In this document: in pieces, positions 3,298 through 58,520 of the stretch | How positions within the stretch are numbered: the stretch's first letter is position 1 | Layout of the letters: each line of letters opens with the position of its first letter | Source of the DNA: Clytia hemisphaerica | Lineage: Eukaryota > Cnidaria > Hydrozoa > Leptothecata > Clytiidae | Reading direction: 5' to 3' | Length of the DNA stretch: 64,000 nt | Assembly (NCBI GenBank): GCA_902728285.1 | Contig: CACVBU010000048.1 | Span: forward strand, 154,690-218,689 | Program-made: the position numbers and the translations under genes | Notes under the pieces: model-generated | The model's input: only the letters and a program-made list of their open reading frames with translations | The model's database searches: none | Told to the model about the DNA's origin: nothing

Positions 3298-5347
3298 AAA
3301 TCGAAAACGAAATGACCAATCTTTCCAACGTCTTGAATCTTTTGTTACCAAAAACAAGAAACTACGCATCTTAAAAGAATTATCAACCGTGAGAAAACCT
3401 AATCAACCTACAAGTTTTGTACCTGTCGTCAACTTGTCTGATATTGCTCTTACCCAAACGGAACGCGACCAGCTGAGCCTTGGACTAGATTACAGTTTTG
3501 TAGACAAAAATAAACATATTAAAAAGACACTCGCGGCTAACCTTGAATGCGTATCCGACCAAGTTACTCCCAAAATTGAACCAGAAAAACGTGAAGACTT
3601 CCACGAGTTCCTACGTGCGTATACAGATATCTTCACCAAAAACGTTTATAAAACACGTGATGATACATATCATAATCTTAAAAACTTAATCAATAACCGT
3701 GATGTTGTTGTTGTACCGGGGGATAAAGATTCCTGTGTTGTAATAATGCGAAGAGATGACTACAATAAAAAACTTCAGAAAATGATCGATGATGGTATCA
3801 AAAATAACAAATACGAACCTACCACTGATGAAACTCTACATGATCTGAAACTTTTCCGTGATTTTATTTATCGTAACTTCCAGAAACACAAAGACTATCA
3901 AAAAATGTTTCCTACTTCTGGTCAACCAGCTCGTTTGTATGGAACAGCGAAAACCCATAAATTTGAATCAATCGAAGATATTGACATGGAAAACTTAAAG
4001 TTCAGACCAATCATTGCCCAAACTGGCACATAAACGTATGGTGCAGCCCAAGTGATTGCAGAATATCTCAAACCACTTTGCAGTGAAAATTCGTATATTA
4101 TCAGAAACACTCAAGATTTTCCATCTATCCTTAAAGAACAAGAAACCCTTTCACCTAACGAAGAATACGTATCGTATGACGTTGAATCGCTATTCACGAA
4201 CATTCCAGTTAAAGATACCATTACATACATCCTTGACGAAATTTACCTACGAGATAAATTACCACAGATAGGAAAGAGATTCATCGTCGAACGACTCTTA
4301 CTTAAACTGACAACAGAAAGTACCTTTATTTTTAACTCTAAATTTTACAAACAAATTGATGGTTGTACCATGGGAGGTCCGTTATCCGTAATCCTGGCAG
4401 ATATATACATGACCAAGATAGAAAACGAAATTGTCCGACCCCTCAACCCATCTTTCTACTACCGTTATGTCGATGATATAATAACCAAACGAAAGAAAAA
4501 TCGTCGTGACAATCTCTTCAAAAAACTAAATTCTAAGAAATCAAAACTGAAATTTACTTGTGAGATTGACCACACTAAATTTCTCGACACCACAATGATC
4601 AAACAAGACGACAATAGTTATGAGACATCTGTTCACCGTAAAGAAACCAAAGTTCCTACACATTGGTCTTCTAAAGTACCTAAAAAGTATAAACGAAATG
4701 CCATTCGTAGTGATCTAAGTCGTGCTTACCGAATCTCTTCCAATTTCCATAGAGAGAAAGAAATTATTCATGAGAAGTTCAAGAAAGTCGACTTTCCTGT
4801 ACCGTTTATCAACAGTGTCTTCAAACAATTTTCTGACAAGAAAAACAACTCAACAGATCCAACATCCGATAATGACCCGAAAGACACTGTCAAAATTTCG
4901 ATTCCATTCTGCGAAAACAACGAAAATGCCTCGAAAAAGTTCCTCCGAAGATTCCATCAACTCACCGATAATCGTTATCAAGTTTCTATTATTTGGAAAA
5001 CTAAGAAAGTTAAAAACTTATTCTTTTTAAAAGATAAGAATCCCCACTTGGCATGCCAAATTTATGAGGGAGTATGTTCATGCGGCCAAAATTATATCGG
5101 TGAAACAGAGAGAAATGTTACGACAAGATGGACTGAACACGAAAATGTTAATCACAATTCTGAGCCTGCAAAACATTTAAAGGAAAACCCCACCCACCAT
5201 TTCCAATGGAGATGCATTTTAAAAGCTCCAATTAACTATAAGGAAAGGAAATTTCTGGAAGCCTCATTTATTGCTACTATGGGACCATCATTAAACAACC
5301 AAATAGAAACAAAACAATTACAACTTTTTAGAAATGGCATCACTTGA
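3260..5347 (+). pseudogene. Penelope-like reverse transcriptase with GIY-YIG endonuclease, one internal stop
   Basis: This is one reading frame of about 695 codons interrupted only by TAA at 4031-4033. The surrounding residues (QTGT, stop, TYGAAQVIAEYLKPL) show that the stop replaces a Tyr codon in a conserved block. RT features follow in order: DVESLFTNIPV (about 4178-4210), the strand/turn CTMGGPLS, and the catalytic YVDD at 4466-4477. The C-terminal GIY-YIG nuclease (about 5050-5300) shows CSCGQNYIGETERN, RWTEH and a late EASFIATMGPSLN. The protein copies RNA into DNA at a nick made by its own endonuclease. No in-frame ATG is evident near the 5' end, and the frame opens with TTG at 3260 inside the left arm. 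The N terminus may therefore be truncated or start elsewhere. Confidence 0.9.
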
Positions 5348-9683: not shown

Positions 9684-9687
9684 AATA

Positions 9688-10465
9688 ATGAACATCTTAG
9701 TGCAGGGGACGGCTGGAAGTGGTAAAACATTTACAATTGTTGCCTTGACCTATTTGTCGCGAAGAATTTACAATAGAAACAATGCTGTAATGAATTTAGC
9801 ACCTACTGGAGCAGCATCTATTCTCCTACCCTTAGGACGAACTGTTCACTCAACAACAAGCATCCCAAGAGTGAAGAAAAAAGAATCCAAAACATTGCAG
9901 TTAACTGATAAGCCATTGAATAGCATATCTCTCACTGCCTTACGTGAACTAACTGGTAGCACTCTGGAAGGTAATTCTATGAAATTGATGACCTTGAATT
10001 TAGATGAAAGAGGTATGTATAGTCATCGTATGTTAGCATGGTGTAGTCAACGTTTTAAGGAGGCAATATGTGATTTTTTCAACAACTTTGGTGCAATACC
10101 AACTGTCAATTTTTTTGGAGATTTAGGGCAGCTAGGTCCAGTTGATTCTCATGATTTGCATGTTGAGCCATTATCCTCAGACGCCCCAGATAAGCTTGCC
10201 GGTTATGGAATCTATCGTACATTTTCACATTGTATTCTGTTAAATGAAACTATGCGACAAGGTCAGTTGTCTTTTTTGGAAATGTTGCTGAGAATCAGAG
10301 AGGGTAAACTCAATTTGAATGACTGGAAGACAATAAATTCAAGATATGAAGGTGAGCTTCCTGAAAGTGCCAAAGAGGGATTTAGATCAGACACATGTTT
10401 GACCGTTATGGAAACGTGGCAAGAGGTAAATGTTGAGAACCACAACAAACCAGCTGATTTGGGGA
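9688..10465 (+). pseudogene. Helitron PIF1-type helicase, frameshifted and 3'-truncated
   Basis: The frame moves by one base just before 9688 and then opens with a Walker A motif, GTAGSGKT (about 9706-9729). PTGAAS follows and then a Walker B-type block FFGDLGQLGPV (about 10110-10145) with a downstream NETMRQG. These are the signature blocks of the PIF1-like helicase that unwinds DNA during Helitron transposition. Normal Helitron helicases extend several hundred residues further, through motifs V and VI. Here the frame leaves the family near 10465. Its last codons up to a stop at 10528-10530 are translated from an inserted MITE. Confidence 0.85.
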
Positions 10466-10941
10466 TCTTTTTGTGCCATTCGAGAGAGCATGAACAACTG
10501 ATAGAGAAAAAGGTCGCAACCTATATCTGAAAATGAATATATCAGGAAATATTAGGAGATAAGGCAAAATGACGTCATCAAACAGTTACGTCATCGAAAA
10601 ATAAAAAATCGTCAATATTCACAATTTTTTGTTTTTTTGGAAAGAATACATATCCGTGAACATAAAATATCTTACGAAAAGGTTTGAAAAACCTCTCAAA
10701 ATGTTGTCAGCCAAAAATGACATTTTTTATTTTTTGCTTGTCAAAGGTTGTGGGTACGCCCGTCAGCACGACACCAAGCTGCCACAAGTAAAATCAATTT
10801 TTGCTAATAAAATTAAAAACGATTTTTTATTTTTCGATGACGTGATTGTTTGATGATGTCATTTTGCCTGATTTTCAGACATAGGTTATGACCTTTTTCT
10901 TTATCAGTTTTTCATGTTCTTTCGAATTGTACAAAAAATTT
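10465..10941. mobile_element. MITE with about 100-bp imperfect terminal inverted repeats
   Basis: The sequence starting near 10465 (CTTTTTGTGCCATTCGAG, then AACTGATAGAGAAAAAGGTC) returns in reverse complement at the other end (about 10880-10941). Inside it a second pair matches: GGCAAAATGACGTCATCAAA at about 10562 and its complement near 10855. There is no transposase. The exact ends and target duplication are uncertain. It truncates the Helitron helicase. Confidence 0.75.
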
Positions 10942-17222: not shown

Positions 17223-17865
17223 ATTTTTGACCCTCCCTTCTTGAGTTTTTTGGTAGATGTTACCCCCCCCCCTTACAGCCCCTGAAGAAAGGAGGAGATT
17301 CTTGAATTGCCAGGGCTGACAATCAAATTATTTTTCATCAGGCTTGGTATAACAGCAAGGAAACTGTTCAGATGAACCTGAGGACCACGGTGATCTGGTG
17401 TTGGAAGTATGAAAAATCGGGGAAACTTTGACTCGTTTTTTTTAATAACTCGAGTTTAAATAGTCGAATGAAGATGCAAATTTGTGTATTTAGTGCAATT
17501 GATGTACGAAATAGACTAAAATCTAAAATTTTCGAAAACTATAATAAGATTTCTGGAAACATAGCACTTTCGTTTTCTCAGATCCCTTAAAATCCCTAGA
17601 AATCCCCTCTCAGATCCCGCAAATCGGAATTCACATAATTCCGACTGTAGTGGTGCTACAGACCTAAAATTTTGACTGAAGGACCAGATCATAAATACAA
17701 TAAGGATAAAACAAAAATTTTTTGTTGATTGATAAATTTTTCTACAAAAGTGAAAATTTATCGATATTTTGAATCCGATAGCAGATCGCTGTGGGACCGG
17801 AGTGACAATTTTTTTGAGGATTTTTTTTGCAAATTTTTGCAGATTTTTACATGTATACACAATTT
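17223..17865. other. No gene seen
   Basis: Includes a C-rich run near 17262-17273 and a small dyad CGGAATT / AATTCCG near 17624-17645. The minus-strand frame at 17516-17860 is not recognised. Confidence 0.4.
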
Positions 17866-17904
17866 CTTTTTCACCCCGGGTTGAATCTAAAAGTTATGCA
17901 TGAT

Positions 17905-18082
17905 TAAAGTCTGTTCACGATAAGTGTGCACTCTTTTTTCTTTTACCTATATAGTTTTTGAAGGAATTCTTCAATCTTTACATCAAGCTGATTGACGTCT
18001 AAAAACGTTGTTTTCTGCTGTTTTTTGAGGTCAATCACTTATTAACTTTGCATCATCTCAGTTGCTTTAAGTGCTTTTTCAT
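17905..18082 (+). repeat. Left TIR blocks of the 8.7-kb transposon
   Basis: Two matched blocks (17905-17980 and 18054-18082) pair with reverse complements on the right side, separated by diverged sequence. Confidence 0.8.
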
Positions 18083-18733
18083 CTTCTTCAGAATGGCGTT
18101 TTATCATCTTAGTTCAAACGAGTATAAATTTCCTTCTAGTTATATTTTCAATGAAAATTTTTTTTGGTTAGAAAGATTAAAGATAAAAATTATTAATAAT
18201 GTAAAAAAAAATCATTAGTTCATTAAATTGGCATGATTAATGACAAAAATCTAGGAAAATTGGTGCTTTTTCTATATATAGCTTCTTCCGGCTATCTAAA
18301 AATAGTCAAGTTGTATTGAAATTCGAGCATACCACCTCCAAGTGGGCCCAATCTTAAATCCATCGAGCAAATAAGAATATTAGATTCCAGGAAGATATGA
18401 CGGGTTAAAGGACACAAATGTGCGATATTTCTCCCTTCAAATGTAATTTATTGTTCCTTGAATTTTTTTTTCTTATATGGCTCGATGGTTCTAAAAAGAT
18501 CAATCTTTTAGCTATCATAATATATAAAGAAAATTTGGAAACTCCAAAAATTAGACTGCCGGAGAACCAAAAACACGAAATAATAACGCATCTTAAAAGC
18601 CAGATCGAATTCTACAGACCCTTCTGCTATCTTTTAAATTGCGAAACACGATTTGTGACGCGTTAAACAAGGCTCACTGCACAGCATGTTGCATGTCAAA
18701 AATGTGAATATAATTGAGTTGTTTAATAAGTAC

Positions 18734-18891
18734 TAGTTATCGCATGACTTCGAGTGCAATACGAGAAATATTTTACGAGTTCCGAGATTTTTCCGTAATA
18801 TTTTTCCGAGCCTTTAGGCGAGGAAAAATATCGGTAAAATCTCGGAACGAGTAAAATATTGAGTATTGCACGAGAAGTCATGTGATAACTA
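18734..18891. mobile_element. Foldback MITE, nearly full-length hairpin
   Basis: TAGTTATCGCATGACTTCGA at 18734 pairs along the whole length with the other half, which ends GTCATGTGATAACTA at 18891. The loop is about GCCTTTAGGC. The arms carry repeated CGAG motifs. No ORF. Confidence 0.85.
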
Positions 18892-18968
18892 ATTTATTGT
18901 CGACTCAAAAAAATTGTCCTCTTTTTGTTTTAAAAATTACTTCCGCCTTCTTCTGCTTCTGTGTACTT

Positions 18969-19026
18969 TCGAATGTTTTTATTCGAAAATCTAATTCGAA
19001 CGTTAAATTCGAATAAAAACATTCGA
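18969..19026. repeat. 58-bp hairpin
   Basis: TCGAATGTTTTTATTCGAA is mirrored by TTCGAATAAAAACATTCGA with a short AT-rich loop. Confidence 0.75.
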
Positions 19027-20055
19027 TATCTTCCCGCTGAAAATATTCACACAAAAACAAAATAGAGAAACATTTTTCGATCATTTTCGATCCAGAAGTT
19101 TTGTTTTGAAGAGTTGCAGATTTTTCAGAAATGTATTTGAAAGTTTCTAGATTGATAATTCAAAATGCAGATGACGTACAGTATTGTTTCGATAGAGAGG
19201 AAAGCCTCCATCATTGGATTAATCAGATTGATAACATTCAGTCTTTTTCTATGTTTTTGTTTCGATGACATGGCCATGGGAAAGAATAGCAGAGGAAAGA
19301 AAGTCCCACGATGGAAATGTATGCTTGTAATAATGGTTAAAGAACAACATTTTTTCAACAGCAAAACAATTTGGATGCTTTCTTGATTATCGTCAAGCTC
19401 TAAATGTTTCGAATTTTAGAAGAAAGATGTATGTAATGATTGGTGAGTTGAAAAGTCAATGACGTATGTTGTTGTGGAGAACGAGAATTAGGAGAGAACT
19501 TTTATAAAAATCACTCGTCATTTGGTTTAATACAAGACATTACACTTTCCTTGTTATGTTATGAGAAATTTTATTGGCAAATATTGAAGAATCTCAGTTT
19601 TTTGTCTGCATTGAAAAAAAACTGTTTGGTTATCACACGGACAAATTTGCCAAAAGTTGAAAATATTTGGGTCGTGTCAAGTAGTTTTATAATTAATTCT
19701 TTGTTCATCAGATTTGATTTTAGTGTCTTTTATGGAAGAACTCCAAAGTAAAGTTATCTGAAATATTTTGTTGCGTTTTTCCTGATTCCCAGCCAGGCCG
19801 TTTTGTTTTGATTTTTTCCCGGCTACCCATCCCCAAAGTCAACGCGCATATTTCCAGACTAAAGAAATATGAAATATCGCAAATATCTCGATGCTCTCGA
19901 CCAATCAAAACGCTGATATTTTTTTGGGTCGGCAATAAACTAATTTAAAAACTCAATCACGCATGAAACCTTGATATTTTAAAAACGAGCCAACCTCACT
20001 CATTTCATAATATTTTTTGAATCTACTTTGAACAATATCTAACCATCTTGACATC

Positions 20056-23000
20056 ATGGTTTCAAAAAATCCGTTTACTTGCGGTTTCTTTAAAGTTAAG
20101 GTTAATGAATTGATGTCAAAATGCTCGACAATTTTGGGAAAAAATGTAAGCGATAATAGAGCGAAAAGTTGTGTTTATACAGAACATTGTAAAGAAATTA
20201 AGGAGTTTTTTAAGGATGGACGCTTTACTTTTGACGAAACAAGTTATAGAAAAATCGGTCCCGTTATGTCACAGATATTTAAATCTTTGGGGCACAATTC
20301 CCCAGAAAAGAGACAAAGAATTTTGCAAACTTTTAATCAAGAGTCATGGGAAAAATTGTCAAACGAAGAAAAGAAAAGACATTCAGTCATTGATTGTAAG
20401 GGATGTCTCGGAAACAGAAACTTCAAGCATGGTTTATCTCTGTTTCCAATATCAAACTTTTATAAAACGAAGGCAATAAAGCATGGATTAATTCGAAAAC
20501 CTTTACAAAACATTTCAAATATTTGCGAAAAGCAAAAAGAGATGAAAATAAAGAGAGATCTTGTGAGGAAGATAGAGAAAGAAAAAGAGAATACAGCTGT
20601 TGCTAGGTGAGTGTTTAATGTTTTTTTCTGTTTTAAGTGTTTCTCTTAGCTATAAGCATCTTTTTGGGTAGGTAAAAAGCCGGGGGAACGAACTTATTTT
20701 CGTTTCCCGATGAATTCACTAGCTTGAGCATGATATCTTCGATTTGAGTTCATGAATGAAGTAAGAAATAAAATGATACCAAAGATTTCTCCAATTCTTT
20801 ACCTCTTTTCAAATCTATCATCTATTCGGTTACATTTTAAGAATTTCTTATACAATAATTATTGCGCAACAATTCTCTTTAAACCAAAACAAAAATGAGA
20901 AACTTTATTTTACTGGGGGAAAGTTATAGGGGAGGGGGTGAACAATTGTAGTATTTGTAGTATTAATAAACCCATCAACTTCCAATCTTTAGGACCTACT
21001 CAAGTGATACCTCTAAAAACAAGCGAAAATATTTACGTAAAAAGGAATCTTTCGAGACAAGAGAAGAAACCGTAGCTAGAACGGAAGAGCTAAATGCAAA
21101 AATTGTAGCTGGAAAAATAAAGGGCATTAACCATGGGAACATACACAATTACGATTGGAAATGGAAAGAGTGTTTAGAATTTTATCAAGAGCTTGAAAAA
21201 GGATCTGAAGTCAACTGGAAAGCAAGTGCAGAATCATATGGTTTAAAAGACCGCACTGGAAAACCCTTAGGAAATGGAGGTCAACTTCTTACAAAATATT
21301 TAAAGGAAAATGACATCGATCCTTCTCAATTCAAATCTGTTCGTGGAGAAGTGAAAACCATTGGGAGAAGTCGGAAAAAAAGGTTTGATTAGAAACTAAT
21401 CCCAAACTTTGATGTGACCATTCTAACCTTTTCCCCAAATTTGATATTGTTTTTAGATGAAAACAATAGAATTCAAGTATGGAATTTGAAAAGGAAGCAA
21501 AAATTCTTTTAGAAATCAATCAGTAATATTTAATTTCTTCTGGCGAGACAGGGGTGTATATATTTAGATGTTTTAACTGTGTATTTAGATGTTTTAAATG
21601 TGTATTTCTTGTGAAAGGTCTCAGTTTCGTGGTAATTTTTCTTTTTGGGCAACTTCTTTTTGAAACCCCTAACCGTCCAGTAAAAAGAGTACCCCATACT
21701 GTAAATATTGGTCCCGAAAACAATCCTCTTTTATGTTCCATGTTGTTCATTATTACTTTCAGAATTGACGGAGACGTTACAATGCCGTGCGAAGTCACAA
21801 ATGAAAAGCTAGATAGTCTACTCAGAGAAGATATCGCAAAGGTAATAAATTCTAATACCTTGGCCTTCATTATAAGAATGTCATTGGTTGCATAGATGTA
21901 CTTCTTCTGATGTTCATACCAAGCTGTCAACAATGCTCGAATTTTAAACAATTATTTTAACATCATCTAAATTTTAAAGTATCATAAGAAGAAAATTATA
22001 TGATAAAAGATACCAATATTTCCTTTTTCTAATATTAAGGGAAAGTACATTGCTGGAGAATTGTTGACACCGCACACGTTTGAAAAACACACAAAAATCA
22101 AAAATGGAAAATTAGTCACTGAGGACTTTTCAGTGCAAGGTAGCTATTATCTGTATATTTTTCACTAAAGGCTATAAGAGTCTGACATGGTCGAGGTCAA
22201 AAGATTCTTATTCTCGATATGGGGGTACATCTTTAACTAACAGGCTTTTAACTTATTTTTTATCTTGTTGGATGGATAAAATACTCAAAACTATCACATA
22301 AGGACTAATGGATCAAAAATATAGTCACTTTCTCTCAAAACCTAACCAAAATCCTTTATTAAAACCTTCTTCTGTATCCGCCTACAATTCATGCCATTTA
22401 TCAAAAATAACGTTTTGTAAAGACTACGTAATCTTAACTGTTTCAGGACGGTTGATAACGCTCGAACTACTACGAGAACGTCTCCTACGTAAAACAAGGC
22501 AGTATATGAGAGTTTTTGACGACGAACAATACGACACAATGGATATCAATCTTGAATACAACCGTATTGACGAAATGATCGATATCAACGACTCGAAACA
22601 CAAACAAATGGAAAAATTGAAAACCTTCCACAGAACACGACATATAACATGCTGGCACGATGGGTCTTCAATATCAAACCATGGTCATCTACTTGTTACA
22701 GTTTGCATGTTGTATGACCCTGCTATTTTTTACACGGATGAAGAATTCTATCAGTTGACAGGTAGCTAAATCTTATTTCAAAACATCTCAAATCAGCTTT
22801 AGGTAGAAAAAGGGTCCGCACAGTAAAGTAATCACATCTTTTTCCAGAAAATATCCCTAGGGCTAGTTCCCTCAAATCTACGAATTTATAAATTTACTCA
22901 ATGTGTCATTTAATATCCATGTATTTGTTTCAAAAGCAACTAGGACAAAATAAGATTTATTTGGAGTTAAAATTTTCAAAATTTCAGGTAAGAAGGAGAG

Positions 23001-25318
23001 AATCCAAACAATTATCGAGGAACCTGAGATCCATCTTTTGGCGAGATGTCCTTCCACAGACGAGCAGCTATTCTACAGTGACGCACGACTCGAGGAAGTT
23101 TGTACATTGTCAAAAGTGATCAGTCTAAACAATGGAATTGAATTTACTGATATCATGAGATTTTTCAAAGGTAGGTTAATGTAGTGAGTGCCTTTTTTTT
23201 TGAAAGAAGAAGAAATAAGCTTTGGATTTTGGAATTGATACTATCATTCTTCTCCAATATTTAGTCTAATGTCTGATTTTTCATTTAGGTGATGGTCCTG
23301 CTTGTCAAACGGAGCTTGGTCATCAAAAAGGAGGAAACTATTTCTGTTGGGTCTGCTCTATTCTTGCAAGCGACGTTCCAGATTTTTCAAAGTCATCAAA
23401 AGCAACTTACCAATCTTTCCTAGACCGAATCGAGCACGTCTTTAGTACAGAGGGCGTCAGGTGTCGAGCGAGAGATGGTAAATGCAACTATTTTGAAAAA
23501 CTTTCGAAAGCTGATTTGATCGCCGAGCTTCATGAAAGAGGTATCAAATTCTTCACAAGTGAATTGAAACCTTCTCTCGACAAAAAACTAGAACAGAATC
23601 TCCATGGAAATCATCGTCTCCCAGCGTTTCTTTTTAACCAACATCGTCGTTGCAACGATCTTTGCAATTTCAATCTCCAACATTACGAAGCCTTGCCTGT
23701 CGAACCCCTACACACTATCATGAACCACATCAAAAATCTCTACGAGGAAATTCCCTATCATTTGGAAGGCAAAGTAAAAAACGGTTTCAAGGAAGCGAAG
23801 AAAGCTTCTTTCAGAGGCAAGGAATTAAAAAAATGGCAGCGACTATCGTGAAAGTCTTGTGAATCTATGCGGAGTTCTGAAACCTGACTTTCCTTTTTAT
23901 GATCTACTTGTTACGCTTTCTGAAATTCAACAAATTTTATATTCTGATGAGTCCAAACGAACAGTCCTTTCAATTTTACGTTTTCACAATCTCACTTTTC
24001 GACATTATCTTCTGATTAAGCCACTTTTTGTCAACATGCATTTAACCAAACGCAAACTTTGTGGCCAGTACAACCATTCACTTTTAATGCATGCACCACA
24101 GCAGTACAGAATCATCAACGGTCTATCAAGCAATACAGAAAGGGAAGAGCGTCTTTTCAGTTCATTAAAGACCATCACAAACCTCACCTCGAATCATCAC
24201 GCCGATCACATAATTTTTAATTGTCTAATCCGTATGCAAGTCAAAGACCAAGAAGCCGAAAAGACTGCCAACCACCGTGAAAACAGAATCTCCAAAGCAA
24301 GTACCCTTCTTCCAAAGAAAACTGATACGTTTTTCTCCAATAAAGAACTTAAAGAATTCAGTCAAGATTTTATTGCTCATTTTAAAAGAATTTCTGACTA
24401 TTTAGCCGAAGGAAATGCATTTTGGACGGAAGTCAATGACGGTATTCAATTTTTTGACACTACAAATCATAATCTAACCACCTTAAGAAAACACAATTTT
24501 CGTAGTTCCACCATCAAAACCGAAATCGAAAGTTTAAATAGGCATTGGGGCTTCTGTCAACGAGACACATCTGAATTTATTCCTGCTGCTGATTTAATAA
24601 TTAAATCTGAAGAGTCCTCAACAACAAGTACCAATGAAACATCACCATCATCATCATCATCATCATCCAATGAAACATTAATATCAATTGACTTTGACGA
24701 TAGTTTATCATCTTCGTTAGCACAGAAATCACAAATGGAAACTATACCTACCATCAGCACACCTATTTTCCCAAAGTATAATCCGAAGAAGCGACCTTTG
24801 CCAACGCCATCAATGTCACCAATCCCCCCATCAAAAGCTAGACGATCGATTCAGATATCTTCTCCGGAGCTCATGGACATTGAACAAACCGACCTTGACG
24901 AATCCAAACAAAAAAACCAAACAAACGAAAAGAAACACAACAAAACACTTTCTAAGCTGACTGTAAAAGTTCCTGATGTGGCCAGTGATCTTACTGTTAA
25001 TTCTAACCTAAGCAAAACCACTCAACACTTGATATCTGTTTTTTCGGCGAAACCCCTCTAGTTATTGAATATGACAAAAAAAGATCATCATTGAAAGCCA
25101 GCCCAAACGATAAACACACTAAAACTTTATTTAATGAAGTTTCAGCTCGATTAGAAGTTCAAGTTAAGTCGAAATACGATTGCTTGAAAGTGGAAAAAAG
25201 AACAATTGAAAGCAAAGAAATGAAAGTATCCTTTAATACTGCAATAAAAGATCCCATCTATTTAGAAACAATAAAGAAAATCAAAGTACTAAAAGCCCTT
25301 ATTTCTACCCTATTTTAA
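20056..25318 (+). CDS. Seven-exon transposase-like protein, unnamed cnidarian-type family
   Basis: The exons are 20056-20606, 20993-21382, 21763-21841, 22040-22139, 22447-22761, 22988-23170 and 23289-25318. All six junctions are GT-AG and keep phase. The predicted protein is about 1,200 residues. Candidate catalytic acids are the Asp of CWHDGSSISNHGHLL (about residue 445), the Asp of GDGPACQTELGHQKGG (about 541, followed by YFCWVC) and a Glu in NTEREERLF (about 823). A SAP-like helix pair (LSKADLIAELHERGI) and the block LPVEPLHTIMNHIKNLYEE lie between. A Ser-rich low-complexity stretch (about 24600-24680) precedes a basic tail. I recall this architecture from cnidarian predictions without a named function; a DDE-type transposase is inference. 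Two single-base shifts break the last exon, in A7 (23827-23833) and T6 (25039-25044). The second means the frame ending at 25061 probably continues to 25318. Confidence 0.7.
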
Positions 25319-26116
25319 TATTTTAAATAATACTTTAACGTTTACTAAGTTTCTTATTTATTTTGTATATTAATAGCCAGGAAATAACAGAGAAAGAGGG
25401 GAAATGTTATTGATTAGATCTAAACTCCACAAATGTTTTGAATTTTTTTCGACATGAAAAGCTCCTTCAATAAATAACACTATCATTTGGATTTGATTAG
25501 GAATTTTTGTTTCGCTACTTGCATGTACTATTACATTTCATCATCTTTCATTGTCATATATATCTCCACGCACAATCACGTACAGAATATTTTACCAAAT
25601 AATTTTTTTTTAAATGGATATTTTTGAAAATAGAAAAAAAATTCTTGTTTTTATAAAAAGTTATACCAAAAATTTGGATTATTTCCAACAAAAACTCAAG
25701 TGAATGATTTCTACTTTTTTTCTGTTTTGTTGTCTTGTTACACAATCGGGTTTTTCCCAATAATCTTTTCATGGGGAATTCCCATCTCTATCTAATAAAA
25801 AGGCGCTCTTTTTAGTTACACTAAATCGGCGCGCGCGCCATTTTTAATAACTTTATCTTGTCAATCAACGAACCGTGACTTCTATGGAAGCCTTTTTTAA
25901 ACACAGTATAAGACTTGTTTAACAAGGTAAAAAAAAATCAGTAAACAGATTAATGAGGTGTCTCTAAAAAAGATTACTTTCGCATTGCTGTTAATATTTC
26001 AAAGACCTGTTTATTACATGTTTTTGAGCAAAATATACGTTTAGTAAGCAAAATTGGTTTAGAGAGATGTCAACTTTGTTCAAGTTTTAAAACCACTCAA
26101 CCATGATAAAAAGATA
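25319..26116. other. Transposon 3' non-coding region
   Basis: AT-rich with no supported exon. A GGCGCGCGCGCC palindrome stands at about 25827-25838. Confidence 0.45.
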
Positions 26117-26437
26117 GAGAAAAAAGCACTTAAAAAAACTGAGATAACTTTATATTGAATAAATATTTTAGTGAAATTTCTTCACAGTGACAACTTCCTA
26201 AGATCAAAGAATCTCTCCAGTGAATATGAAAGTTATAGCAATTTTCTACAAGATCTTCATTTTTTTCTTCTTTATTTTCATCTTCATTTTTAGAATTATT
26301 TTAAAGATTTTTTTATTTCAAATTGTTCCACTTGCAAATATCTCTCTAACGATACCAAACTTATAAAGATTGAAGAATTCCTTCAAAAGTTATAGGTAAA
26401 AGAAAAAAGAGTACACACTTATCGTGAAGAGACTTTA
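26117..26437 (-). repeat. Right TIR blocks of the 8.7-kb transposon
   Basis: Inverted matches to the left TIR at 26117-26146 and 26364-26437. Beyond, to about 26575, are several palindromic copies of TTTTCACCCC / GGGGTGAAAA that mark the outer end. Confidence 0.8.
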
Positions 26438-26602
26438 CGTTTTCACGCTGGGGTGAAAATAAGTTAGAATTTTCACCACGGACTGAAAAAAAGGGTTTTC
26501 ACCCCGCCTTTCGCCGACGTGTATCCCAAAATGATTTTCACCCCGGGGTGAATTATTTTTCCATTTCACCCCGGCTACGTGTAACCACCGCCTAAGTTTC
26601 AA

Positions 26603-27689
26603 GAAAGAATAATTGGTATCGTTGTTGATGAAGCACATCCTGTTCCAAAATGGTAAGCAAATTGTTTTCATTTTCATGGGTTTTATTTGTGATATAGTAA
26701 TTGCAATGTTTGGTTTTAAAACTAGAATGACAAATTGAACAATCTGTTAAGAAGTGATGCTTTTATTAAAAAGTAACTTTTTTTTATGAGCTGTTGTAAT
26801 TTTGCTAAAAAAACTGTTAAAAAATTCTGCGTTTTTTTCTTTTAATTTAATTTTTAGGGGTACTTCAAGCAAATCTGAAGATGCTCCATTTCGAGAAGCA
26901 TTTCAACATCTTGATCGCTTGAGAGGATATTTTTCAACACCTTATCTCTGTCTGACGGCAACTGCAAATAAAAAAACAAGAAATGACATCACAAAGATTT
27001 TAGGACTGAAACAACCAAAAATAATAAAGGTTACACCTGAAAAGCCTAATATCAAGCTGAGAATAATCAAAGTGAAAACTGTGGAAGATGTCATGGATTC
27101 AGCTCTTTTATGTGACCTTGTTGACCAATTGAAAACTGATCCGAAAACATGTGATAAGACTATAATTTACTGTCATTCGTATCCTGCTTGTGGTGATGTT
27201 TATTTGAAAATAAAAGGTCATTTTCCACGTGGATTTGATTTAACTTTGCTCGTTGAAATTTATCATGGAAGTACTGAGGATGAAATACAGCAAGAAATAT
27301 TGGATGATTTCTCAAATAATAACAGCTCTACACGCATAGTCATAGCTACAAATGCTCTTGGTGTTGGAGTTAACATTCGTAATATTCGTAATATCGTTCA
27401 TTGGGGTGTCCCATCAGATATCGAGGGCTATGTTCAAGAAATTGGACGTGCTGGTCGTGATGAAAAAGATAGTTCGGCAACACTATTCTATCGAGGTAAT
27501 GACTTAACACACTGTAAAGACAAAGATATGGTAACCTATATAAAAAACGAGCAGAAGGAATGTCGTCGAAAGCTTTTAATGTCATTTTTCAAAAGTGAGT
27601 ATTCAACCTCAGTAGAGAAGCATTTTTGTTGTGATGTCTGCTCTGAAATATGCAATTGTACATTGTGTTCACAAAATTTAATGGTTTGA
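26603..27689 (+). pseudogene. RecQ-like helicase, 3' exons (DEAH to motif VI)
   Basis: The first exon (about 26603-26652) encodes FQERIIGIVVDEAHPVPKW, which is helicase motif II with its usual following aromatic/Trp. Splicing to 26858 restores phase (TG plus G gives Trp). The next exon continues with CLTATANKKTRNDI (motif III), TIIYCHSYPACGDVY (motif IV), RIVIATNALGVGVNIRNI (motif V) and VQEIGRAGRDEKDS (motif VI). The C terminus is Cys-rich (CCDVCSEICNCTLC), as in the zinc-binding region of RecQ proteins, and stops at 27687-27689. The region between motif Ia (exon at 16464) and DEAH is missing. The left edge of the DEAH exon abuts the right end of the 8.7-kb transposon. Confidence 0.8.
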
Positions 27690-47258: not shown

Positions 47259-48560
47259 AAGTAAGTAAGTATTTATTTGCCTTTTTAACACATCTGAAAA
47301 TGATACAAGAGGCGGAATCAACAAAATAAAAAGGAAGGAGACCGCCTTATAGCTAAGCTAATCAAAAAAAGATGCGACCACCTAAGTGCCGAAAAATTTG
47401 AAGCAATAAAAAATTAGAATAAATTTTTGCTTTCTTGGTTGGGGAGGGGGTGTGCTCAGTATTCCCCAATACAGTGAGTGAAGGCAAGAGATTTAATGAA
47501 ATCACAATCAGATGAGCTCAAGGTTATATCAGGGTATGATCGCTGTAAACAATTCCATTGTGTTATGCAGGTCTTAGTAAATGATTTGTTACCAAAAGTT
47601 ATAGTGTTAAAGGAAGGAACAAAAAGAAGTTTCAATTTTGCTCCCCTGGTACCTTTATTATCATCACCATCAGCATCAAGCTGAATGAAGTTAAAAAATT
47701 GCAGGAGATCGAAAGTTAATCTGTTGTTCAAGAATTTGTGAACAAAAAGAAATATTAAGGCATCTGACAAGGTCGAAGATTTTGAGAATTTTAAGATCTG
47801 ATAAAAGTGGAGAAGAAGGGCATTGAGAGTTATTAAAGGTCATGAGACGTAAGGCTTTCTTTTGAAGAATAAAGATAGGTTTTGATTTAGTATTATCAGT
47901 GAGACCCCATAGTTGGCAACCATATTGTAAATGAGAATGGAAAAGAGCATGATTGTGTTTATGAATAGGGCGCCGTATCAGTTTTTTACTTTCTGGCGCA
48001 CAACAAGATTCGCGGGAGGACTATTTTCCTCAATTGCCTTCAGAGGTTTATCGTGCACGTAAGAAAAATATGAACAGCTGTTATCAGGTTAGGTTTGGAG
48101 GGATCTGAAGTCACGATTGACTCTGTTGCATAAAGATAGAAGATCAGGATTAAAATGCAAGAGGTGAGTATCATCAGCAAAATGGGAAGTTTCACTTGAA
48201 AAAATGGCATTGTGGAGATCGTTAATGTAAATTAGAAATAAAAAGGGTCCCAAAACAGAGCCTTGCGGAACCCTATGAGGAATTATTTTAATAGAGGACT
48301 CAGTAGAGGAGTTGGAAACAAACTGAGATCTATTAGAAAGATACGATCTAAACCATTCATTAGCCTTGCCTCTGATACCATAGTGATTTAATTTTGAAAT
48401 TATAATAGAGTGATCAACGGTATCAAAAGCCTTTTGCAAATCAACAAACACACCACATGCAAAGTTACCATCATCAAGATAATTCCGAATACGTTCAACA
48501 ATGTTAAGCAAAGTGTGAACCCGACTTCTCTGTCCATGTAGTTTTGCGAAGTAAAAGATT
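47259..48560 (-). mobile_element. CR1/Jockey-type non-LTR retrotransposon, 5'-truncated and internally deleted
   Basis: On the minus strand the RT core (48511-48089) shows GVFVDLQKAFDTVDHSIIIS, VPQGSVLGPFLFLIYINDLH and the catalytic FADDTHLL. A separate 3' block (about 47965-47456) reads FHSHLQYGCQLWG in one frame and KFLNNRL...NTITFGNKSF...WNCL in another. This matches the C-terminal part of such ORF2 proteins. Roughly 100 or more codons between the blocks are missing. The 3' end runs into (ACTT)n on the minus strand at 47259, a microsatellite tail as seen in CR1-like elements. A frameshift lies near 48500. Confidence 0.75.
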
Positions 48561-57514: not shown

Positions 57515-58520
57515 ATGTTGAGGTTCTTTCTACAGAATTGGCAAAAACCAACCACAGACCCTGTCATTCTAGAGATCGTAGAAGGGTTGAAACTTCCAAT
57601 AAAAGGCAGGCCCTGGCAAACAAGGGAACCCAAAGAAATAACAATGTCACTGCTGGAGAAGGAAGTATTAGACAAAGAGATAGAATCAATGCTAAAGAAG
57701 GGAGTTCTGAGGGAGGTAGAACCTTCAAGGGACCAGTTTCTGTCAACGATATTTGTCAGAGCCAAAATGGAGGAGAACAAATTTCCACTTCAATATGGAG
57801 GGGATGAAAAATGTAGTCGACCTATTGAACCCAGGTGACTATATGATAAAGATAGATCTAAAAGATGCGTATTGGCATGTGCCAATACACCCTACTTCGC
57901 AAAAGTATCTGAGGTTCCGATGGAGGAATGTACTTTATCAGATGTCAGTACTAGCTTTCGGAGTGGGACCAGGTCCCAGAATCTTAACAAAGCTTTTGAT
58001 AGTCCCCCTAACCACATTGAGAAAGTTAATGGTACACATAATAGCCTATCTAGACGATTTTCTTATAATTGGGAGGACCAAAGAAGAAGTAATTCAGGCA
58101 AGAGACTTGACTCTTTTTCTTCTCATGCAACTGGGTTTAACAATAAACTGGGAAAAGTCGGTACTGAAACCAACTCAGGAAGTAGAGTTTTTTGGTATGA
58201 TGATAAACAGTCTATCAATGGAGGTCTGGCTGCCAATAGAAAAGATAGAGAAATTGTTGAACATTTGCAAAAACAACCTGTCCCAGGGGAGAATAACTCT
58301 AAGGGAGCTGGCCAGTCTAATAGGGAAATTGTACTCGACCCAACCAGCGATCACAATGGCCCCCCTGCAAGTGAGGGCATTACAACAAGACCTGATAAGG
58401 GCTCAAAAGAACCAAATGAACTACGGTCAAACCATTCAATTGACTTTAGACTCAAAGAAGGAACTAGAATGGTGGATCAACAACCTAACACTATCAAAGG
58501 GCTGGGAAACCCAGATATGA
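57515..58520 (+). pseudogene. DIRS reverse transcriptase
   Basis: The N-terminal part (57515-57780) includes RFFLQNWQKPTTDPVILEIV and ESMLKKGVLREVE. The frame shifts near 57790 and the RT core follows in the frame of 57753-58520. Its blocks are MIKIDLKDAYWHVPIHPTSQ, LRFRW, LAFGVGPGPRILTKLL and the catalytic YLDD at 58047-58058, then a thumb-like LGLTINWEKSVLKPTQ. DKDAYWHVPIH-type fingers and a 'FG...GPRIFTKLL' block are characteristic of DIRS/PAT RTs rather than LTR retrotransposons. At about 58500 the frame shifts again into RNase H. Confidence 0.85.

Follow-up and report, generated by a model that had tools for sequence, protein, structure and literature searches.

Cut-and-paste transposons of the CMCT type (EnSpm/CACTA, Mirage, Chapaev and Transib/RAG1) are characterized by an RNase H-like fold with a DDE triad, by a C(2)C and an H(3-4)H motif and by target site duplications (TSDs) of 2-5 bp, with termini that are 5'-CA..TG-3' in most cases, not in all (Kojima, 2025, PMC12730594). 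Animal CACTA elements with 2-bp duplications have been described (DeMarco et al., PMC1636069; PMC4298943), and in mouse RAG1 the acids D600, D708 and E962 are accompanied by the zinc ligands C727, C730, H937 and H942 (PMC4914335). Here we analyze a stretch of 64,000 nucleotides from the hydrozoan Clytia hemisphaerica (contig CACVBU010000048.1, positions 154,690 to 218,689; hereafter the window, with positions counted from its first letter), which contains an intron-containing gene for a transposase-like protein within an element of 8,087 bp (18057-26143, forward strand). With a probability of roughly 0.78, we read this element as a divergent CMCT-type cut-and-paste transposon, present as a decayed copy in an older repeat.

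The boundaries of the element are given by genomic sites from which it is absent. In the 417-Mb assembly (951 contigs), a query of 201 bp taken from the surrounding sequence on the left gave at least 68 matches, a lower bound because only 40 out of 1,362 candidates were scored. Besides the window, 19 of the matching places were retrieved, and in 17 of them the two flanks are joined directly, with a single AT (or a variant of it) and without the gene (at most 3 mismatches in 22 bases; exact in 13 of the 19). The window carries an AT on both sides of the transposon (18055-18056 and 26144-26145) where the empty sites have one, and the transposon therefore comprises 18057-26143, with a 2-bp duplication, inside an older repeat.

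This older, separate repeat extends from about 17794 to 26574 on the forward strand and is interrupted between 18056 and 26144. Its left part (17794-18056), the target of the insertion, matches all 19 fetched copies, starting at 17789-17797 in 18 of them and at 17834 in one, and its right part (26144-26574) is defined by the empty-site copies. The initial annotation had described a nearly intact 8.7-kb element at 17866-26560 and had tied the gene family to the long inverted repeats that enclose it. These repeats exist (17905-17951 and 26391-26437, 96% complementary over 47 bp) but lie within the two parts of the older repeat, which owns them (on the left as 17905-17980), whereas the gene does not; the element is shorter, has other ends, and includes an insert of its own. 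Gene copies without the outer repeats, which the annotation had named as grounds for abandoning its proposal, do occur, and the transposon reading survives them with these other ends. Nesting can thus mislead, as the most conspicuous inverted repeats that flank a transposase may belong to something else. The outer repeat has long, inverted arms, and at one further locus two or more copies of it apparently lie next to each other.

The ends of the transposon itself read CTCAGTT...AACTGAG and form an imperfect terminal inverted repeat (TIR) of 23 bp, with the left end (18057-18079, CTCAGTTGCTTTAAGTGCTTTTT) identical to the right end (26121-26143, ending in AACTGAG) at 21 of 23 positions. The closest copy, L009, is 98.7% identical in a piece of 6.2 kb and 97.9% in another of 0.7 kb; it matches the window solely inside 18057-26143, with the same ends and unrelated flanks. 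Missing from it is an insert of roughly 1.2 kb that is nested in the window element at 18730-19933, with a possible 5-bp AATAA duplication. We read the window element as the decayed descendant of an autonomous DNA transposon about 6.8 kb long; it measures 8.1 kb here because of this insert, which itself contains inner inverted repeats. Two more copies with other flanks and similar, CTC-type ends were found: L010 (68-81% identical to L009 in DNA pieces) and the distant relative L015 (30-61% identical across protein pieces, and 53% in the longest one from the C-terminus).

All four copies with both ends (the window, L009, L010 and L015) carry a 2-bp duplication (AT, AA, TT and TT), and the identity does not extend to three bases. 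Their TIRs agree at 21, 21, 16 and 18 of the 23 bases and start with CTCAG, CTCAT or CTCG, and the termini are CT..AG in 4/4, the ends of L010 and L015 having been picked by likeness to the known ends. The target dinucleotides consist of A and T only, and four sites are too few for claiming a preference. A 200-bp query from the left end found 12 genomic places including the window, ten of which begin exactly at 18057; the corresponding right query found five, two of them full length. Blind TIR detection at 20 loci recovered the true ends for L009 only, and for 17 of these loci (all but L009, L010 and L015) no end pair was found. Thus the element transposed as one piece that kept its ends and produced a 2-bp duplication, and the resemblance between copies (about 98.7%) implies that this movement is fairly recent. 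One copy of the left end, L051, tracks the window over 18057-18570 and then diverges; the fetched sequence covers the left end and is consistent with an internally deleted derivative.

The gene lies on the forward strand, and its seven exons join in phase across six introns, all GT-AG, as had been annotated. Exon 1 (20056-20606) provides the start ATG and an N-terminal domain with DCKGC, and exon 2 (20993-21382) encodes a basic, possibly DNA-binding region. Exons 3 (21763-21841) and 4 (22040-22139) are followed by exon 5 (22447-22761) with CWHDGSS and D445 (22659-22661), exon 6 (22988-23170) with LARCPS, and exon 7 (23289-25318). The last exon holds D541 (23291-23293), C559 and C562 (23345-23356), H803 and H808 (24075-24092), E827 (24147-24149), and the C-terminus with the stop codon. 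The motifs quoted in the initial annotation are present, while its description of the copy as nearly intact was generous, given two frameshifts in exon 7 near 23,830 and 25,050. In L009 this exon is uninterrupted and gives 675 aa starting at the GDGPA motif, although L009 appears damaged elsewhere, with exon 5 matching in two frames. Residues 1-540 from the window and the 675 aa from L009 add up to about 1,215 aa for the whole protein, in agreement with the roughly 1,200 residues first estimated. In divergent relatives, tblastn pieces tend to break at residues of about 184, 315, 341, 374, 479 and 540, which supports the exon model.

The C-terminal part of the protein has at least 106 matches in the genome, at dispersed places, a number of them with stops and many with long open frames. 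From these, 20 loci were chosen and aligned with the window in a query-anchored family alignment of 21 rows, in which gaps and X were excluded per count. D445 is present in all 17 readable rows and D541 in all 16 exon-7 pieces (15 loci covering the residue, and the window); an automatic count had given 14/16 for D541, but on re-reading the apparent losses in L020 and L025 proved to be translated splice-donor bases, a correction that speaks slightly for the proposed reading. C559 and C562 are found in 16 of 17 rows and H803 and H808 in 18 of 21; none of the 21 rows lacks F830 or K834. The two aspartates, whose invariance the initial annotation had put up as a check, are thus invariant, and the glutamate placed near 823 falls in a block in which E824, E826 and E827 each occur in 20 of 21 rows.

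Together these residues form the signature D...D-x-P-A...C(2)C...H(4)H...E. D541 precedes C559 by 18 residues and H808 precedes E827 by 19. The corresponding distances are 19 (D239 to C258) and 20 (H478 to E498) in an EnSpm protein of the host, L050, where D239 and E498 are the putative catalytic residues, and likewise 19 and 20 in RAG1, as calculated from the published residue numbers (PMC4914335). An ordered joint-motif expression fits both the transposase and L050 and was found in 0/20,000 shuffles of either protein. Among the unedited open reading frame (ORF) sequences of 12 members, several of which are pieces that do not cover the motif region, six of the 12 show D.PA-x14-C..C and eight show the H(4)H-E pattern; exceptions are L028 with a shorter H-H spacing, L017 with E827D, and L026, which lost the histidines.

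The zinc motifs can also be followed in a lineage in which they are missing. H803 and H808 are lost in all of L025, L026 and L027, with E827 kept, and in L025, the sole one of the three aligned at that exon, C559 and C562 are lost as well, with D541 and E827 retained. Such joint loss is expected if both pairs serve one zinc site, and as it concerns one lineage it counts as one observation. Together with near-identical matches on contigs C802 and C628, these loci represent a lineage that exists in multiple copies and whose matches are free of stops. Perhaps the lineage is dead, or it works without a zinc site.

Between D541 and E827 the protein contains a SAP-like helical segment (23483-23590), in line with the helix pair proposed in the initial annotation. 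At residues 605-640 the consensus of the family scores above the cut-off of PF09124 (endonuclease VII dimerisation), with 4e-6 in the 675 aa and 3.5e-8 for a 56-aa consensus piece, whereas the SAP profile itself gave 0.0044, below its cut-off. PF09124 was not reached by any of the 12 members searched singly, and the segment is tentatively supported at the level of the family. Overall, the conserved acids, the zinc-motif signature with near-RAG1 spacing, the precise ends and the 2-bp duplications make a DDE-type transposase in an intron-containing transposon well supported, as the annotation had suspected.

Several observations weigh against a CMCT-type transposon. The ends are CT..AG instead of the usual CA..TG. 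D464 (17/17), H681 (18/19) and H686 (19/19) are conserved equally well, and therefore conservation alone cannot pick the catalytic residues; the proposed choice of catalytic and zinc residues, including E827 and H803/H808, rests on spacing. The motif expression was composed after both proteins had been seen. No significant transposase match was obtained in Pfam with the joined protein, the exon pieces, the 12 aligned members or the family consensus (for the last two no transposase family appeared at a limit of E 10), and none to a chain in the PDB with a profile built from the last exon only, so without D445. Comparison by hhalign with two host EnSpm ORFs (L049 and L050) gave nothing, and a four-block position-specific score against L050 fell short of the mean of the shuffles, 358 of 400 of which scored at least as high. 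AlphaFold2 models of two window pieces, made from single sequences with no alignment, were unusable (pLDDT 39 and 38); introns and frameshifts interrupt the core in this copy.

A few hits in these searches were taken as chance: PTSIIA_gutA (0.046) with the joined protein, four Pfam families that each appeared in one of the 12 members (best 0.039), SPOB_ab (3e-4) and TBPIP_C (0.006) with the consensus, both under their cut-offs, besides weaker ones, and LINE-1 ORF1p (E 0.08), the sole match of the PDB profile. RAG1 chains are present in the PDB. Pfam holds a Plavaka transposase profile; no Plavaka profile was among the matches of the joined protein, the members or the consensus.

One alternative is that the element is an ordinary EnSpm/CACTA member of the animal TRC type, already in Repbase under that name. 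Animal TRC elements with 2-bp duplications are known (PMC1636069; PMC4298943), and the D-x-P-A, C(2)C and H(3-4)H signature is shared with the host protein L050. Yet the Transposase_21 family (PF02992) is readily detectable in this host, with 118 matches and 1.8e-9 for L050, whereas the 12 members and the consensus gave no PF02992 match at a limit of E 10, HMMER filters dropping most matches above E 0.1. Moreover, the TIRs start with CTC, not with CCC or CAC. We consider this alternative unlikely; judged from the proteins and termini compared, the transposon would fall outside EnSpm itself.

Rather improbable is the view that the element belongs to a DDE superfamily unrelated to CMCT, with a zinc signature that arose by chance or convergence. 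The lack of detectable homology to EnSpm or to PDB chains speaks for this view, but it has to accommodate the same motif order at near-identical spacing, which the shuffles failed to produce, and zinc residues that were lost jointly in one lineage. A single 8.7-kb transposon bounded by the outer repeats (17866-17980 and 26364-26560) is refuted, since, despite the long, highly complementary arms that flank the gene, these arms occur joined at one AT without it in 17 of 19 copies, and L009, L010 and L015 carry the gene between other flanks with CTC ends. Equally remote is a host gene family caught between repeats: introns and long open frames in many members would suit it, but precise ends, TIRs, 2-bp duplications at four sites, the empty sites, and the scatter of copies over the genome, some of which contain stops, do not.

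A CMCT-type transposon is the best reading. The initial annotation knew no named superfamily for the protein, which agrees with the absence of significant Pfam and PDB matches, but the motif signature and the TSD length place the family near CMCT. By its motif signature, the transposon probably works like members of the CMCT clade and descends with them, far from those compared here. Its membership would follow from motif order, spacing and duplication length rather than from measurable sequence similarity. Under this reading D445, D541 and E827 would bind metal as the catalytic triad in a core with an RNase H-like fold. The transposase, with its zinc-closed insertion, would excise the element at its CTC...GAG ends and join it to a target cut with a stagger of 2 nt.

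The combination of CTC...GAG ends, 2-bp duplications, a SAP-like segment in a RAG1-type zinc-closed insertion, and one multicopy lineage that is zinc-less yet keeps the visible catalytic acids may define an undescribed CMCT lineage, possibly a superfamily, a proposal for which we see the balance as level. The literature searched, Repbase and Dfam being outside the search, gave no description recognisable as this transposon family, and the odds are about even that it is already catalogued somewhere, for example in one of these two databases. In either case, a large family of proteins, present in many copies and not named in Pfam, is now tied to a mobile element with exact ends and a duplication, and the defined ends allow cataloguing and the finding of non-autonomous derivatives. 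If the RAG1-like zinc layout were confirmed by structure, the family would be a distant new branch of the clade that gave antibody gene recombination.

Elsewhere in the genome (G000:C928:3187553-3203196), five related coding matches lie about 3.83 kb apart on one strand, which suggests a tandem array with a piece of the transposase gene. Relatives were also searched for in viral and prokaryote contigs, and none was confirmed. Within the window, an ORF with a Helicase_C domain (26790-27689, forward strand; 1.2e-17), RecQ-like by eye, is located just past the outer repeat. Among ten ORFs scanned, those at 4034-5347, 9685-10530 and 57720-58520 on the forward strand and at 48089-48559 on the reverse strand account for three reverse transcriptase domains and a PIF1-like helicase, and the window is therefore dense in likely mobile elements.

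When the transposon is compared with described systems, the C(2)C and H(4)H motifs and the 2-bp duplication of CMCT elements are present and the CA..TG termini are absent (PMC12730594). Similar to animal TRC members of EnSpm/CACTA, as represented by L050, it has D-x-P-A after the second acid, a C(2)C, and an H(3-4)H that precedes the glutamate by about 20 residues, and its duplication lies within the 2-3 bp of that group, 2 bp being the length in TRC members. In contrast to EnSpm/CACTA, it shows no PF02992 match or significant alignment, contains a SAP-like segment, and starts with CTC where EnSpm/CACTA TIRs start with CACTA, CAC or CCC. The duplication made by Transib is 5 bp, and in this respect, as in the missing match to PDB chains, the transposon differs from Transib/RAG1, with which it shares a single C(2)C and a single H(4)H, both located between the second aspartate and the glutamate at near-equal spacing. 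Plavaka, Lanisha and ESTA, compared by description and not by protein sequence, have the same motif signature (PMC12730594); Plavaka also resembles it in its 2-3 bp duplications, and differs in ends of TGT..ACA or CATCA..TGATG, while ESTA differs in its TA duplications. Dada is likewise a large DDE transposase with introns, but has 6-7 bp duplications as opposed to 2 bp, a DxxH motif and small-RNA-gene targets, and Dada-U6 and Dada-U1 have sub-terminal instead of terminal inverted repeats (PMC3706591). Sly1-1 of Neurospora, a fungal element likened here by description and not by protein sequence, was assigned to CMC from a library search together with the spacing of its DDE, C(2)C and H(3)H residues, a route partly similar to the one followed for the Clytia transposon (PMC4592977).

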